Assembly: GCF_900129825.1 (NCBI RefSeq)
Contig: NZ_FQWZ01000005.1
Coordinates: 124,001 to 188,000, forward strand
From: Hydrocarboniphaga daqingensis
Lineage (GTDB): Bacteria > Pseudomonadota > Gammaproteobacteria > Nevskiales > Nevskiaceae
DNA: 64,000 nucleotides
Direction of reading: 5' to 3'
Shown: one piece after another, positions 54,540 to 58,249 of the stretch
Position numbering within the stretch: the stretch's first letter is position 1
Layout: the number at the start of each line of letters is the position of its first letter
Made by a program: the position numbers and the translations under genes
The notes under the pieces: model-generated
Seen by the model: only the letters and a program-made list of their open reading frames with translations
Databases searched by the model: none
What the model was told of the DNA's origin: nothing

Positions 54540-55859
54540 GTGCGGAGTCCGCGCCTGACGCATGTAGACGAGCCCAAAGCAGCGTTGATGGCGGACGGTC
54601 GCCGTCATTGGTGTGACGTGCGGCATCATCACGCCGTATCCTTTCGCAACCGGCTTCGGCAGACTCTGCCGACCGCAAGATCGCAATGTGATCCCGATTT
54701 GATCCGATCGAGTCTGAGTGACGCGTTTCCGCATCTACCGCAACGCAGCGGGGGGCCTGACGACCGCGAACCCGATCCTGACACGGCATTCAGATCGTTC
54801 TATCTCGAATCGACGCGCCAGCCCGCGATCTATCTGAATCTGTTTTTCGGCTTGCTGCTGCTGGCGATCGTGCCCATCCGATCCCTGTGCTTTGGCCTTC
54901 CGGTATTTCCAACGCTGAGCGCCGCACTGCTCGAATGGGGCGTCATGGTGCCGGCGTGCTTCGCCACACTGTATCTGCGTGCGTCAACCTGGCCGACTGC
55001 CGTCGTCATGCGCGGCACCAGCGCCCTGATCGCGCTGAACTTCACGGCCTTGTTTTTCGATCTGCTGATCTGGCAACTGAACGGCGTGCCGATACCGTAT
55101 GAGTACACCGCGCTGTATTTCGTCGGCCTGCTGTCGGTCGATGGCCTGCCGGCTCGCTACACGCTGGCGCTGTGCGGTCTGTTTCTCGGTTTGAACGTGA
55201 CGGCGGTGCAGATGATTCACGGCTGGACGCCGGCTGCCGGCTTCGAGCTGTACTTCGATATCGTGGCCGTCTGCATCGCGCTGCTGAACTCGCTGATGTT
55301 GCGAAACGAAGCGATGGTGGCGTGGACGCTGAAGACACGGCTCAACACGATGGCGTTCCGCGATGCACTGACCGGGCTGGGTAATTGGTACCACCTCGAT
55401 GACCGCGTCGGTCCCTTGTTCCAGCGCGCGCATCGCGAGCGCCGCCCCGTCAGCGTTGCGTTGGTCGACGTGGATCGATTCAAAGGCTTGAACGATTCGC
55501 ACGGGCACCCCGCAGGTGACGCGGCACTGCAGCAGCTTGGCCGTGCGCTTCAGCACGTCGCCGTCGGCCCGATCGATATTGCCGCACGGATCGGTGGCGA
55601 TGAATTCATCCTCGTGTGGTTCGACATCGACCGAGCCCGATGCGAGCAGCTGTGCCGCGAACTGCAGCTCGCGATTGCCGACGCCGGAATTCGCAACACA
55701 GCCTCGGATACCGGCGTACTGACCACCAGCATCGGCGCCGTGACCGGCGTGCCAGCGCAGCGCGACGACTTTGAGCACTTCCGGCGCTGCGCCGATGCCG
55801 AGTTGTACAAGGTCAAAAACAACCGCAAGGTCGAGTCGCTGCGCAGCGCATCGATCTAG
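54540..55859 (+). CDS. Membrane-bound GGDEF-domain diguanylate cyclase
   Basis: A diguanylate cyclase making c-di-GMP. After a hydrophilic N-terminus come about six membrane helices (ALLEWGVMVPACFATLYL and others) and then a GGDEF domain with DALTGLGNWYHLDDR, DVDRFKGLNDSHGHPAGDAAL and an intact IAARIGGDEFILVW. The usual RxxD inhibitory site before GGDEF is not seen (GPID), so product inhibition may be absent. The start is uncertain: the ATG at 54540 gives 439 residues, but the first 50 look uncoding and a TTG at 54699 is an alternative. No good ribosome-binding site marks either. Confidence 0.87.
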   Translation: MRSPRLTHVDEPKAALMADGRRHWCDVRHHHAVSFRNRLRQTLPTARSQCDPDLIRSSLSDAFPHLPQRSGGPDDREPDPDTAFRSFYLESTRQPAIYLNLFFGLLLLAIVPIRSLCFGLPVFPTLSAALLEWGVMVPACFATLYLRASTWPTAVVMRGTSALIALNFTALFFDLLIWQLNGVPIPYEYTALYFVGLLSVDGLPARYTLALCGLFLGLNVTAVQMIHGWTPAAGFELYFDIVAVCIALLNSLMLRNEAMVAWTLKTRLNTMAFRDALTGLGNWYHLDDRVGPLFQRAHRERRPVSVALVDVDRFKGLNDSHGHPAGDAALQQLGRALQHVAVGPIDIAARIGGDEFILVWFDIDRARCEQLCRELQLAIADAGIRNTASDTGVLTTSIGAVTGVPAQRDDFEHFRRCADAELYKVKNNRKVESLRSASI

Positions 55860-55887
55860 TGCCGGGCCGCGGCTGCGCACGTCGCGC

Positions 55888-55916
55888 TTGTTGAGCACCC
55901 CGAGCCTGACTACAAT
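55888..55916 (+). promoter_or_regulatory. Sigma70-type promoter of the manganese riboswitch transcript
   Basis: TTGTTG (55888-55893) and TACAAT (55911-55916) are separated by exactly 17 bases and match the -35 and -10 consensus at four and five of six positions. Transcription would start at about 55923, right where the riboswitch begins. Confidence 0.7.
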
Positions 55917-55922
55917 CGCCGC

Positions 55923-56060
55923 ACTCTTTGGGGAGTAGCCACCGTCGCCGATTGCTCGGCGCGGCTTGCACGTCAACATACTTGCCGCATTGCTGGCATG
56001 GCGTGCAGAGATTCCAGCGCATCACGCGTTGGTTTCGGGTGAGACCAACGACCACGGACG
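55923..56060 (+). promoter_or_regulatory. yybP-ykoY manganese riboswitch
   Basis: The three conserved blocks of the yybP-ykoY family occur in order: GGGGAGTAGCC (55930-55940), TCAACATACTT (55973-55983) and GGGTGAGACC (56037-56046). The last lies in a hairpin CGTTGGT-10-ACCAACG (56027-56050). In known members the first loop and the GAGACC loop dock to form the Mn2+ site, and Mn2+ turns on exporter expression. The element sits between a good promoter and a GDT1-family gene, the classic context. The expression platform (about 56051-56118) is GC-rich with overlapping inverted repeats; no terminator with a T run is seen, so control of translation is more likely. Confidence 0.92.
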
Positions 56061-56118
56061 CCGGCATGCCGGGCGGCGGCCGCGCGTCGTTGTCCACCAT
56101 CCCGGCCGGTTCTCTCTG

Positions 56119-56700
56119 ATGATCTTCGAAGCCTTTACCGTCTGCACCAGCGTCGTCGCGCTCGCCGAGATGGGAGACAAGACGCAGCTGCTGTCGCTGT
56201 GCTTGGCCGCCCGCTATCGCAAGCCGCTGCCGATCGTGCTGGGCATTCTGGTTGCCACCTTGCTCAATCATGGCCTCGCCGGCTGGCTCGGCGCCTGGGT
56301 AGCGACGCACGTCCCCGAAACGTATCTGCGCTGGGCACTGGGCCTGAGTTTCATCGCGATGGCGGGCTGGCTGTTGGTCCCCGACCGTTTCGACGATGCC
56401 GATGACAGCCTGACGGCGCGACGCGGCACGATCTTTCTGACCACGCTGTGGCTGTTCTTCATTGCGGAGATCGGTGACAAGACCCAGATCGCGACGATCG
56501 GTCTGGCGATGCGCTACGACAGCCTGCTGGCCGTCGTGGCGGGCACGACGCTGGGCATGATGTTGGCCAACGTGCCGGCCGTGTTCCTAGGCGACCGCTT
56601 CGCGCGGCGGATGCCAGCCGACCTGATGCGCCGCATTGCCGCTGCGGTATTCGCCGTGATCGGCCTGCTGATGCTGCTCGGCGTCGGCGACGGTTTGTAA
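56119..56700 (+). CDS. TMEM165/GDT1 (UPF0016) family manganese exporter, MneA-like
   Basis: A 193-residue membrane protein with two repeats of three helices. Each repeat carries the family signature E-x-G-D-K-T: AEMGDKTQLLSL in the first and AEIGDKTQIATI in the second. Members of this group export Mn2+ (MneA of Vibrio) or exchange cations for protons. The Mn2+ riboswitch directly upstream supports manganese efflux here. The start at 56119 gives the normal N-terminus. It converges with hutH 13 bases away. Confidence 0.92.
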   Translation: MIFEAFTVCTSVVALAEMGDKTQLLSLCLAARYRKPLPIVLGILVATLLNHGLAGWLGAWVATHVPETYLRWALGLSFIAMAGWLLVPDRFDDADDSLTARRGTIFLTTLWLFFIAEIGDKTQIATIGLAMRYDSLLAVVAGTTLGMMLANVPAVFLGDRFARRMPADLMRRIAAAVFAVIGLLMLLGVGDGL

Positions 56701-56713
56701 TGGCCGACAACAC

Positions 56714-58249
56714 TCAGCCGTCCTGACTCCACGACGGCAGTAGATCGGCGACGATCGGCGTCAGCACTTCGGTCGCCAGCAGATCATCGGCGGCGGCGAT
56801 GTCCGGTGCAAAGTAGCGGTCGTGCTCGTAGAACGGCACTTTTTGCCGCAGCGCTTCATGGACGAAGCGCAGCGGTTCGGACGTGGCCAATGGTGCGTGA
56901 AAGTCGATGCCTTGCGCGGCGGCCAGCAGTTCGATCGCGACGATCGTGCGCGTGTTGGCCGTCATCTCCAGCAGCCGCCGCGCTGCGAAGGTCGCCATGC
57001 TGACGTGGTCTTCCTGGTTGGCCGACGTCGGCAGGCTGTCGACGCTGGCCGGATGCGCCAAGGACTTGTTTTCCGACGCCAGTGCCGCCGCGGTGACGTG
57101 GGCCATCATGAAGCCTGAATGCAGCCCGGCATCGCGAACCAGAAACGGCGGCAAGCCCGAGAGCGTCGAGTCGATCAGCAGCGCAATGCGGCGCTCCGAC
57201 AACGCGCCGATCTCGGCAATCGCCAGTGCCAGCGTATCGGCGGCCAGCGCCACCGGCTCGGCGTGGAAGTTGCCGCCGGACAGCACCTCGTCGCCGAATA
57301 CCAGCGGATTGTCGCTGACCGCATTGGCCTCGATCACCAGCGTGCGCGCGGCCTGCCGAAGCAGATCCAGACAGGCGCCCATCACTTGCGGCTGGCAGCG
57401 CAGGCTGTATGGGTCCTGCACGCGATCGTCATGGATGCGGTGCGACTGGCGGATCGCGCTGCCGGCCAATAGCCGGCGGTATGCAGCCGCCACATCGATC
57501 TGTCCGGTTTGCCCGCGCACTTGATGAATGCGCGCGTCAAACGGCGCATCGGAGCCGCGCGCCGCATCGACCGACAAGGCGCCGGTGACCACGGCTGCCG
57601 CATAGACGTCCTCGGCTTCCATCAATGCGCGCAAGGCCAGCGCCGTCGACACTTGCGTGCCGTTGAGCAGTGCCAAGCCTTCCTTGGCGGCCAGGTCCAG
57701 CGGATCGATACCCGCTTCGCTCAGCGCTTGGCGTGCCGGGACGACCAAGCCATCGATACGCACCTCGCCCTCGCCGATTAGGGCCATCGTCAAATGGGCC
57801 AGCGGCGCCAGATCACCGGAGGCACCGACGGACCCCTTGGCCGGGATGCAAGGCAGCACGCCTGCGTTGTACAGCGCCAGCAGCCGTTCGACGAGGCAGC
57901 GGCGTACGCCCGAATAACCACGCGCGAGGCTCGCGGCCTTAAGCAGCAGCACCAGTCTGACGGTTTCATCATCAAGCGGTGCGCCGGTGCCGACCGCGTG
58001 CGAGCGCACCAGGTTGCGCTGCAGCGCGGCCAGCTGATCGACCGGGATGTGCGTCTTGGCCAGCTTGCCGAATCCGGTATTGATGCCGTACAGCGGCTCG
58101 CCGCGGTCGACAGCGGCCTGAACCGCGGCAGCCGACGCATCCACCGCTGCCCAGGCTTGGGGCGCGATCGAGACCTGCGTGCGTCCATCGAGCAGATGGC
58201 GCAGCTCGCGCAACTTGAGCTTGCCGGGGTTCAGATGCCACTCGGACAT
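56714..58249 (-). CDS. hutH: Histidine ammonia-lyase
   Basis: HutH deaminates histidine to urocanate using an MIO cofactor formed from A143-S144-G145 in [15 protein letters not shown]. Other family marks are Y54 in [40 protein letters not shown] and [11 protein letters not shown]. The 511-residue length is typical. No hutU, hutI, hutG or hutC is in the window, so the rest of the pathway must lie elsewhere. The sequence alone does not exclude a tyrosine-ammonia-lyase activity, but histidine is more likely. Confidence 0.92.

Follow-up and report, generated by a model that had tools for sequence, protein, structure and literature searches.

Features of the locus

The window, by which we mean the whole 64-kb stretch of Hydrocarboniphaga daqingensis DNA analyzed here, contains a promoter-like sequence, a yybP-ykoY (RF00080) aptamer and a GDT1/UPF0016 family gene, one after another on the forward strand (Table 1). 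A preliminary description of this DNA had read these elements as one manganese-sensing unit, a reading that appears right as far as sequence allows it to be judged. The unit is flanked by genes for a GGDEF diguanylate cyclase (54540-55859, +) and histidine ammonia-lyase (hutH, 56714-58249, -), neither of which has an evident link to manganese.

Table 1. Coordinates of the features in the window
Feature	Position	Strand	Basis or remark
-35-like hexamer TTGTTG	55888-55893	+	weak; 3/6 consensus match (hand count)
-10 box TACAAT	55911-55916	+	5/6 consensus match (hand count)
Mn2+ aptamer, yybP-ykoY (RF00080 core)	55921-56054	+	lineage covariance model and RF00080
L1 block GGGGAGTAGC	55930-55939	+	TGGGGAGTAG invariant in 29/29 aligned relatives' aptamers
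Helix P2	55942-55964	+	RNA fold; P2 pairs covary in relatives
Helix P3 with L3 loop GTCAACATAC (55972-55981)	55966-56008	+	RNA fold; P3 pairs covary
3' strand of switch helix P1, GACCAACGACC	56043-56053	+	doubles as 5' arm of the competing hairpin
Competing Mn-free hairpin, anti-P1	56043-56094	+	CAACGAC 56046-56052 : GTCGTTG 56086-56092
Alternative hairpin h1:h1', anti-P1 3' strand in its loop	56068-56106	+	GCCGGG 56068-56073 : CCCGGC 56101-56106
GDT1/UPF0016 family gene, putative Mn2+ exporter, 193 aa, ATG start	56119-56700	+	Pfam GDT1

The encoded protein matches Pfam GDT1 (PF01169) at 164.2 bits against a cut-off of 27, over two stretches. Its reading frame is intact, and the two E-x-G-D-K-T repeats reported earlier are present as E-M-G-D-K-T and E-I-G-D-K-T. 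Judged by the motif E-x-G-D-(K/R)-(T/S), which GDT1/UPF0016 membrane proteins carry in one or two copies, the product belongs to this family. The ATG at 56119 is consistent with the start positions of relatives. A sequence search against solved structures at E 0.01 returned no match to the protein. Manganese export has been reported for V. cholerae MneA (PMC7380456), and Vibrio mneA is described as a UPF0016 gene under a yybP-ykoY riboswitch (PMC13274385).

The preliminary description had stressed the presence of GDT1 in place of the more familiar mntP, which is not unusual: a review counts a UPF0016/GDT1 gene under a yybP-ykoY riboswitch in 328 of 333 strains (PMC7380456). Within the window's family, a GDT1 homolog lies downstream of RF00080 in 28 of the 31 matches that we fetched, and was not found in the other three (L009, L011, L016). 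The pairing of this riboswitch with a GDT1 exporter is the norm, and the window carries an ordinary manganese-sensing switch.

Leaders compared and the promoter

For comparison with relatives, 108 of 111 loci gave a GDT1 match and, after removal of two that offered no usable start, 106 leaders were extracted. A strict L1 motif occurs within 300 nt upstream in 74 of these; the other 32 were left out, and we do not claim that they have no riboswitch. Exclusion of L045, where no GAGACC-type motif was found, leaves 73 leaders, and exclusion of L031, L038, L061, L082, L093 and L054 (wrong motif picks, odd pairing or duplication) leaves 67. L054 was kept in the exposure models and the P1-energy comparison, which comprise 68 leaders. 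The column counts use 47 sequences, namely 44 of a thinned set of 45 together with the window, its same-genus relative G007 and L005.

The spacer between TTGTTG and TACAAT is exactly 17 bases, as was originally noted, and the two boxes fare differently among relatives. Among 73 leaders, a set that counts the window and all relatives without thinning, a TANNNT sequence occurs 12-25 nt 5' of the L1 motif in 67 leaders versus 14% in shuffles, and its distance to L1 is 19-21 nt in 60 of those 67. The -35 box is poorly conserved across the same leaders, and a promoter scan of 55000-57500 at a stricter cut-off reported none, the -35-like hexamer included. TACAAT is also a plausible -10 box of the B. 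pertussis BP3410 riboswitch, for which the transcription start is reported to have been mapped (PMC8546581).

The aptamer

The three conserved yybP-ykoY blocks are all there in the order first described: GGGGAGTAGC, GTCAACATACTTG (from 55972) and GTGAGACC (56039-56046). These include the L1 sequence GGGGAGUAGC, an L3 loop with the Mn2+-contacting A, and GAGACC. The ACAUACU of L3 is identical to that of the X. oryzae riboswitch, where it is the L3 sequence of the reported crystal structure (PMC6754395). The lineage-model alignment places helices P1, P2 and P3 in the window. P1 is weak, at -6.0 kcal/mol versus a mean of -8.9 kcal/mol for 68 leaders, and gives no covariation signal of its own in species swaps.

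The Rfam score is low for so complete an aptamer. At the gathering cut-off, Rfam yields zero matches in the whole 64 kb. With a relaxed threshold, a search of 55700-56300 gives RF00080 at 55913-56114 with 40.2 bits (E 2e-9), the best of the matches listed, the other three having E values above 2. The RF00080 gathering score is 45 bits, which leaves the window copy 5 bits short; it is also the single match at E 0.001 in the 3.79-Mb genome. The preliminary description had named the lack of an RF00080 hit above threshold as grounds for rejecting the riboswitch, and because the copy scores below the gathering score, this test is formally failed. The aptamer itself stands. A lineage covariance model made from the aligned aptamers of 29 relatives (of 45 thinned), from which the window and its genus were excluded, matches 55921-56054 with 55.3 bits (E 5.8e-13), aligned over all 111 positions, and has no second match in the 64 kb up to E 10. 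Since a model made without the window's genus finds this site alone, we regard the aptamer as real. The curated Rfam gathering cut-off serves for filing and describes no biological feature, and we take the low score to reflect drift of the aptamer's outer parts. Within the family Nevskiaceae, RF00080 finds a match in 38 of 58 genomes, of which 33 score over the cut-off and five, the window's included, score under it. The gathering score therefore misses likely members in five of the 38 matching genomes.

By eye, CGTTGGT at 56027-56033 could pair with ACCAACG at 56044-56050, which would give the P1 3' strand another rival partner within the aptamer. This pairing is absent from the predicted RNA fold, and CGTTGG is missing in G007.

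The competing hairpin

The P1 3' strand has two potential partners: the 5' strand before L1 (-6.0 kcal/mol) or a strand at about 56086-56092 (-16.6 kcal/mol). The second pairing closes a hairpin at -28.1 kcal/mol (z -1.93), with 9 of 200 shuffles as stable. Hairpin and P1 are two competing pairings for one strand, and by base complementarity the hairpin excludes P1. Thermodynamic models favor the Mn-free fold by 8.4 kcal/mol, a figure that ignores tertiary contacts and Mn2+.

The relatives share this arrangement. The equivalent hairpins of the 67 leaders, the window's among them, have energies between -20.9 and -37.6 kcal/mol, with a mean of -30.7 kcal/mol. In 67 of 67 leaders the two strands form 11 or more pairs and z is below -1, with 65 below -2 and a mean z of -4.4 in a dinucleotide-shuffle control; the 67 of 67 rests on that control, because any strand will have some best partner. 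From the end of the stem to the start codon 3' of it there are 15-44 nt, and 18-42 nt in 64 of the 67. When the strand pairing is compared with shuffled downstream regions, the mean z is -2.9 and 57 of 67 leaders stand at no more than 5 of 100 shuffles. The window is weaker here, with 10 of 100 shuffles of the downstream region equally strong.

Species swaps point the same way. For 53 non-redundant leaders, the P1 3' strand pairs with its own downstream region at a mean of -18.9 kcal/mol and with swapped regions at -13.3 kcal/mol; swaps as strong as the native pairing number 161 of 2214 overall and 11 of 51 for the window. An initial version of this test chose the native strand by its pairing, and the version reported here uses the whole downstream region.

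Covariation was scored on the 47 sequences. Anti-P1 together with h1:h1' scores 0.288 versus at most 0.119 when slid by one to three columns, and none of 500 shuffles reaches 0.288. In anti-P1, 7 of 13 pairs are changed on both sides and 73.5% of cells are paired; the pair is missing at columns 11-82 in 28 and at columns 12-81 in 29 of the 47 sequences. The anti-P1 pairs were named from pairwise folds, and the covariation count therefore uses a structure derived from the same sequences. RNAalifold, run on a MAFFT alignment of 45 platforms, predicts h1:h1' only and not anti-P1. The window and G007 have the pairing CAACGAC:GTCGTTG in common, and most relatives show the UUUGAC:GUCAUU type.

The h1:h1' helix

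A third helix, h1:h1', has 89.1% of cells paired and 5 of 7 pairs changed on both sides in the 47 sequences, a count in which the window lies one column out of register. In the swap test, 920 of 2756 swaps are as strong as the native pairing (31 of 52 for the window), a result that is uninformative because the GGCCGG core is widely shared. The helix h1:h1' and the Mn-free hairpin are rivals, which would place h1:h1' in the Mn-bound, and probably the ON, state. In several relatives this helix reaches across the Shine-Dalgarno sequence.

Proposed mechanism

We conclude that the locus is very probably a manganese riboswitch of the yybP-ykoY (RF00080) class, which switches on expression of a GDT1-family Mn2+ exporter at high Mn2+ by strand exchange between P1 and the hairpin. 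Transcription would start just 5' of the P1 5' strand. Mn2+ would dock L1 on L3 and stabilize P1, thereby blocking the hairpin and raising expression. At low Mn2+, the P1 3' strand would pair with the strand about 25 nt 5' of the start codon, and the hairpin so formed would exclude P1 and lower expression. The h1:h1' helix would compete with that hairpin and lie against the ribosome-binding region. We infer the ON direction by analogy with published cases, as Mn is reported to induce E. coli mntP (PMC11647493), B. pertussis BP3410 (PMC8546581) and V. parahaemolyticus mneA (PMC13274385).

The closest known systems agree with this scheme in part. The Vibrio mneA and B. pertussis BP3410 riboswitches have an aptamer core and a promoter just upstream of it, as in the window, and Vibrio mneA also encodes an exporter of this family; for BP3410 the description given is that of a calcium:cation antiporter (PMC8546581). 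Compared with these two, the window has an RF00080 score below the gathering score by 5 bits, a weaker P1 and drifted P1 strands. In L. lactis (PMC11087558) and X. oryzae (PMC6754395), a Mn2+-stabilized P1.1 is reported to compete with a downstream hairpin, as P1 is predicted to do in the window. The L. lactis competitor is described as an intrinsic terminator (PMC11087558), whereas the window hairpin has no T-run. E. coli mntP resembles the window in that its P1 3' strand can pair with a downstream strand whose end lies about 21 nt 5' of the ATG, a comparison made without controls, and Rho-dependent termination has been reported there (PMC11647493). It differs in the gene controlled, which is mntP and not GDT1, and in a longer spacer between aptamer and switch strand.

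The output step

The preliminary description had noted that the leader has neither a terminator with a T-run nor a strong Shine-Dalgarno sequence. Both observations are borne out: only 2 T occur in the 12 bases at or after the stem end of the window hairpin, and a terminator scan of the leader finds no terminator with a T-run. As for an intrinsic terminator, the GC-rich hairpin is present and the T-run is missing. The Shine-Dalgarno:anti-Shine-Dalgarno energy of the window is -4.0 kcal/mol (median -3.6 kcal/mol), the 33rd strongest of 69. The further suggestion that switching might be atypical is not upheld. The competing hairpin is present in 67 of 67 leaders, the T-rich tail is absent in 54 of 67 (13 have at least 5 T in those 12 bases), the Shine-Dalgarno sequence ranks 33rd of 69, and E. 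coli mntP shows a similar strand exchange. Because relatives share the same competing hairpin, a missing T-run and a weak Shine-Dalgarno sequence are not signs of a new mechanism. They are common among the leaders compared, and a possible false lead is thereby corrected.

For the output, we lean weakly towards premature termination without a T-run, assisted by Rho, combined with poor translation, by analogy with E. coli mntP, where Rho is reported to terminate transcription in the leader and Mn to relieve this partly (PMC11647493). The 24 bases between hairpin and ATG in the window contain 46% C and 21% G, and 57 of 67 leaders have more C than G there; such a C-rich, G-poor spacer fits Rho and proves nothing.

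A purely translational switch, with the ribosome-binding site concealed in the Mn-free fold and uncovered by Mn2+, and without transcription stopping early, is a plausible contender to which we give somewhat less than even standing. E. coli mntP has been described as a translational riboswitch (PMC11647493), the published RNA-seq of V. parahaemolyticus mneA is reported to show no fall in reads across the riboswitch whether or not Mn is present, leading its authors to doubt termination there (PMC13274385), and the window hairpin has no T-run. Against this, modeled exposure of positions -16 to -5 is nearly equal in the two states: the mean change when P1 forms is 0.03, and 42 of 68 leaders show greater predicted exposure with P1. 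For the window itself, the models give 0.28 with P1 formed versus 0.40 without it at -16 to -5, and 0.67 versus 0.47 at the start codon. Simple exposure of the ribosome site by P1 was rejected, as the models show no consistent change. Moreover, an ON-state h1:h1' helix that reaches over the Shine-Dalgarno sequence, as in several relatives, has the wrong sign for a sequestering switch.

Two other routes to translational control were considered. Sequestration by base pairing between L1 and the ribosome-binding region, which form 12 pairs in the window's predicted Mn-free fold, was rejected, with 62 of 200 dinucleotide shuffles as strong; over 69 leaders the mean z of this pairing is +0.27, and only L041 and L111 fall below -1.5. 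Translational coupling through an upstream frame of 17 codons (56066-56119), with a TGA that shares bases with the exporter ATG (TGATG), is not favored; in G007 an ATTG replaces the ATG start of that frame.

Within the Rho-assisted reading, a three-way switch can be imagined, which we rate as possible and rather doubtful. At low Mn2+ the hairpin would leave the C-rich h1' and the start region single-stranded for Rho loading; at high Mn2+ h1:h1' would cover h1', acting as an anti-Rho element and not as a Shine-Dalgarno lock. If true, this would explain a conserved, covarying hairpin beside the ribosome site in the ON state. We found no description of a three-helix platform in the portions of the yybP-ykoY, mntP and UPF0016 literature searched, a statement that concerns those sources and makes no claim of non-existence. 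The platform of three competing helices offers a testable proteobacterial expression platform whose Rho-dependent or translational role could be tested in E. coli.

That the Mn-free hairpin alone stops RNA polymerase as an intrinsic terminator is unlikely for the window, where 2 T in 12 bases and the empty terminator scan weigh against a stem of -28 kcal/mol. The 13 of 67 leaders with at least 5 T at or after the stem end speak for it, as does the report that transcription of B. pertussis BP3410 stops in the leader without Mn (PMC8546581); the V. parahaemolyticus RNA-seq, with its reported lack of a drop-off (PMC13274385), speaks against it. Among Betaproteobacteria, the Mn-free hairpin of leaders L046, L083, L086 and L092 ends in GTTTTT. 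Intrinsic termination may be in use in these relatives, and others lack it.

We think it quite improbable that the window copy is decaying and losing its function. Its sub-threshold RF00080 score, its weak P1, the loss of the GGAG-like Shine-Dalgarno sequence that many relatives have and the extra pairing of the P1 3' strand with the upstream CGTTGGT (seen by eye and not in the predicted fold) could be read in this way. Yet L1, L3 and the exporter frame are intact, and G007, whose protein is 79% identical, keeps both the aptamer core and CAACGAC:GTCGTTG. A chance resemblance with no riboswitch at all, for which the score under the RF00080 gathering score might be cited, can be dismissed given E values of 2e-9 and 6e-13 and a position in front of a GDT1 gene, where such an aptamer is expected and where relatives have it.

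Genome setting and exporter relatives

In the window's genome, MntP has no match and Nramp only a sub-threshold one. Two TerC-family genes are present (G000:C4:420353-420865 and G000:C5:484442-485014) and carry no RF00080 match, the only one found in the genome being that of the window. A GDT1 domain match occurs in 47 of the 58 Nevskiaceae genomes. Within the order, the nearest protein to the window's exporter is that of G007, and a tree of 118 proteins pairs the two with support. The GDT1 copy in two further genomes of the genus is 53-54% identical and is placed elsewhere in this tree. Members of the genus (L142, L005, L019) differ in carrying two quite different GDT1 copies, 79% versus 53-54% identical to the window's protein, and the two types in one genus may reflect replacement or transfer of the exporter.
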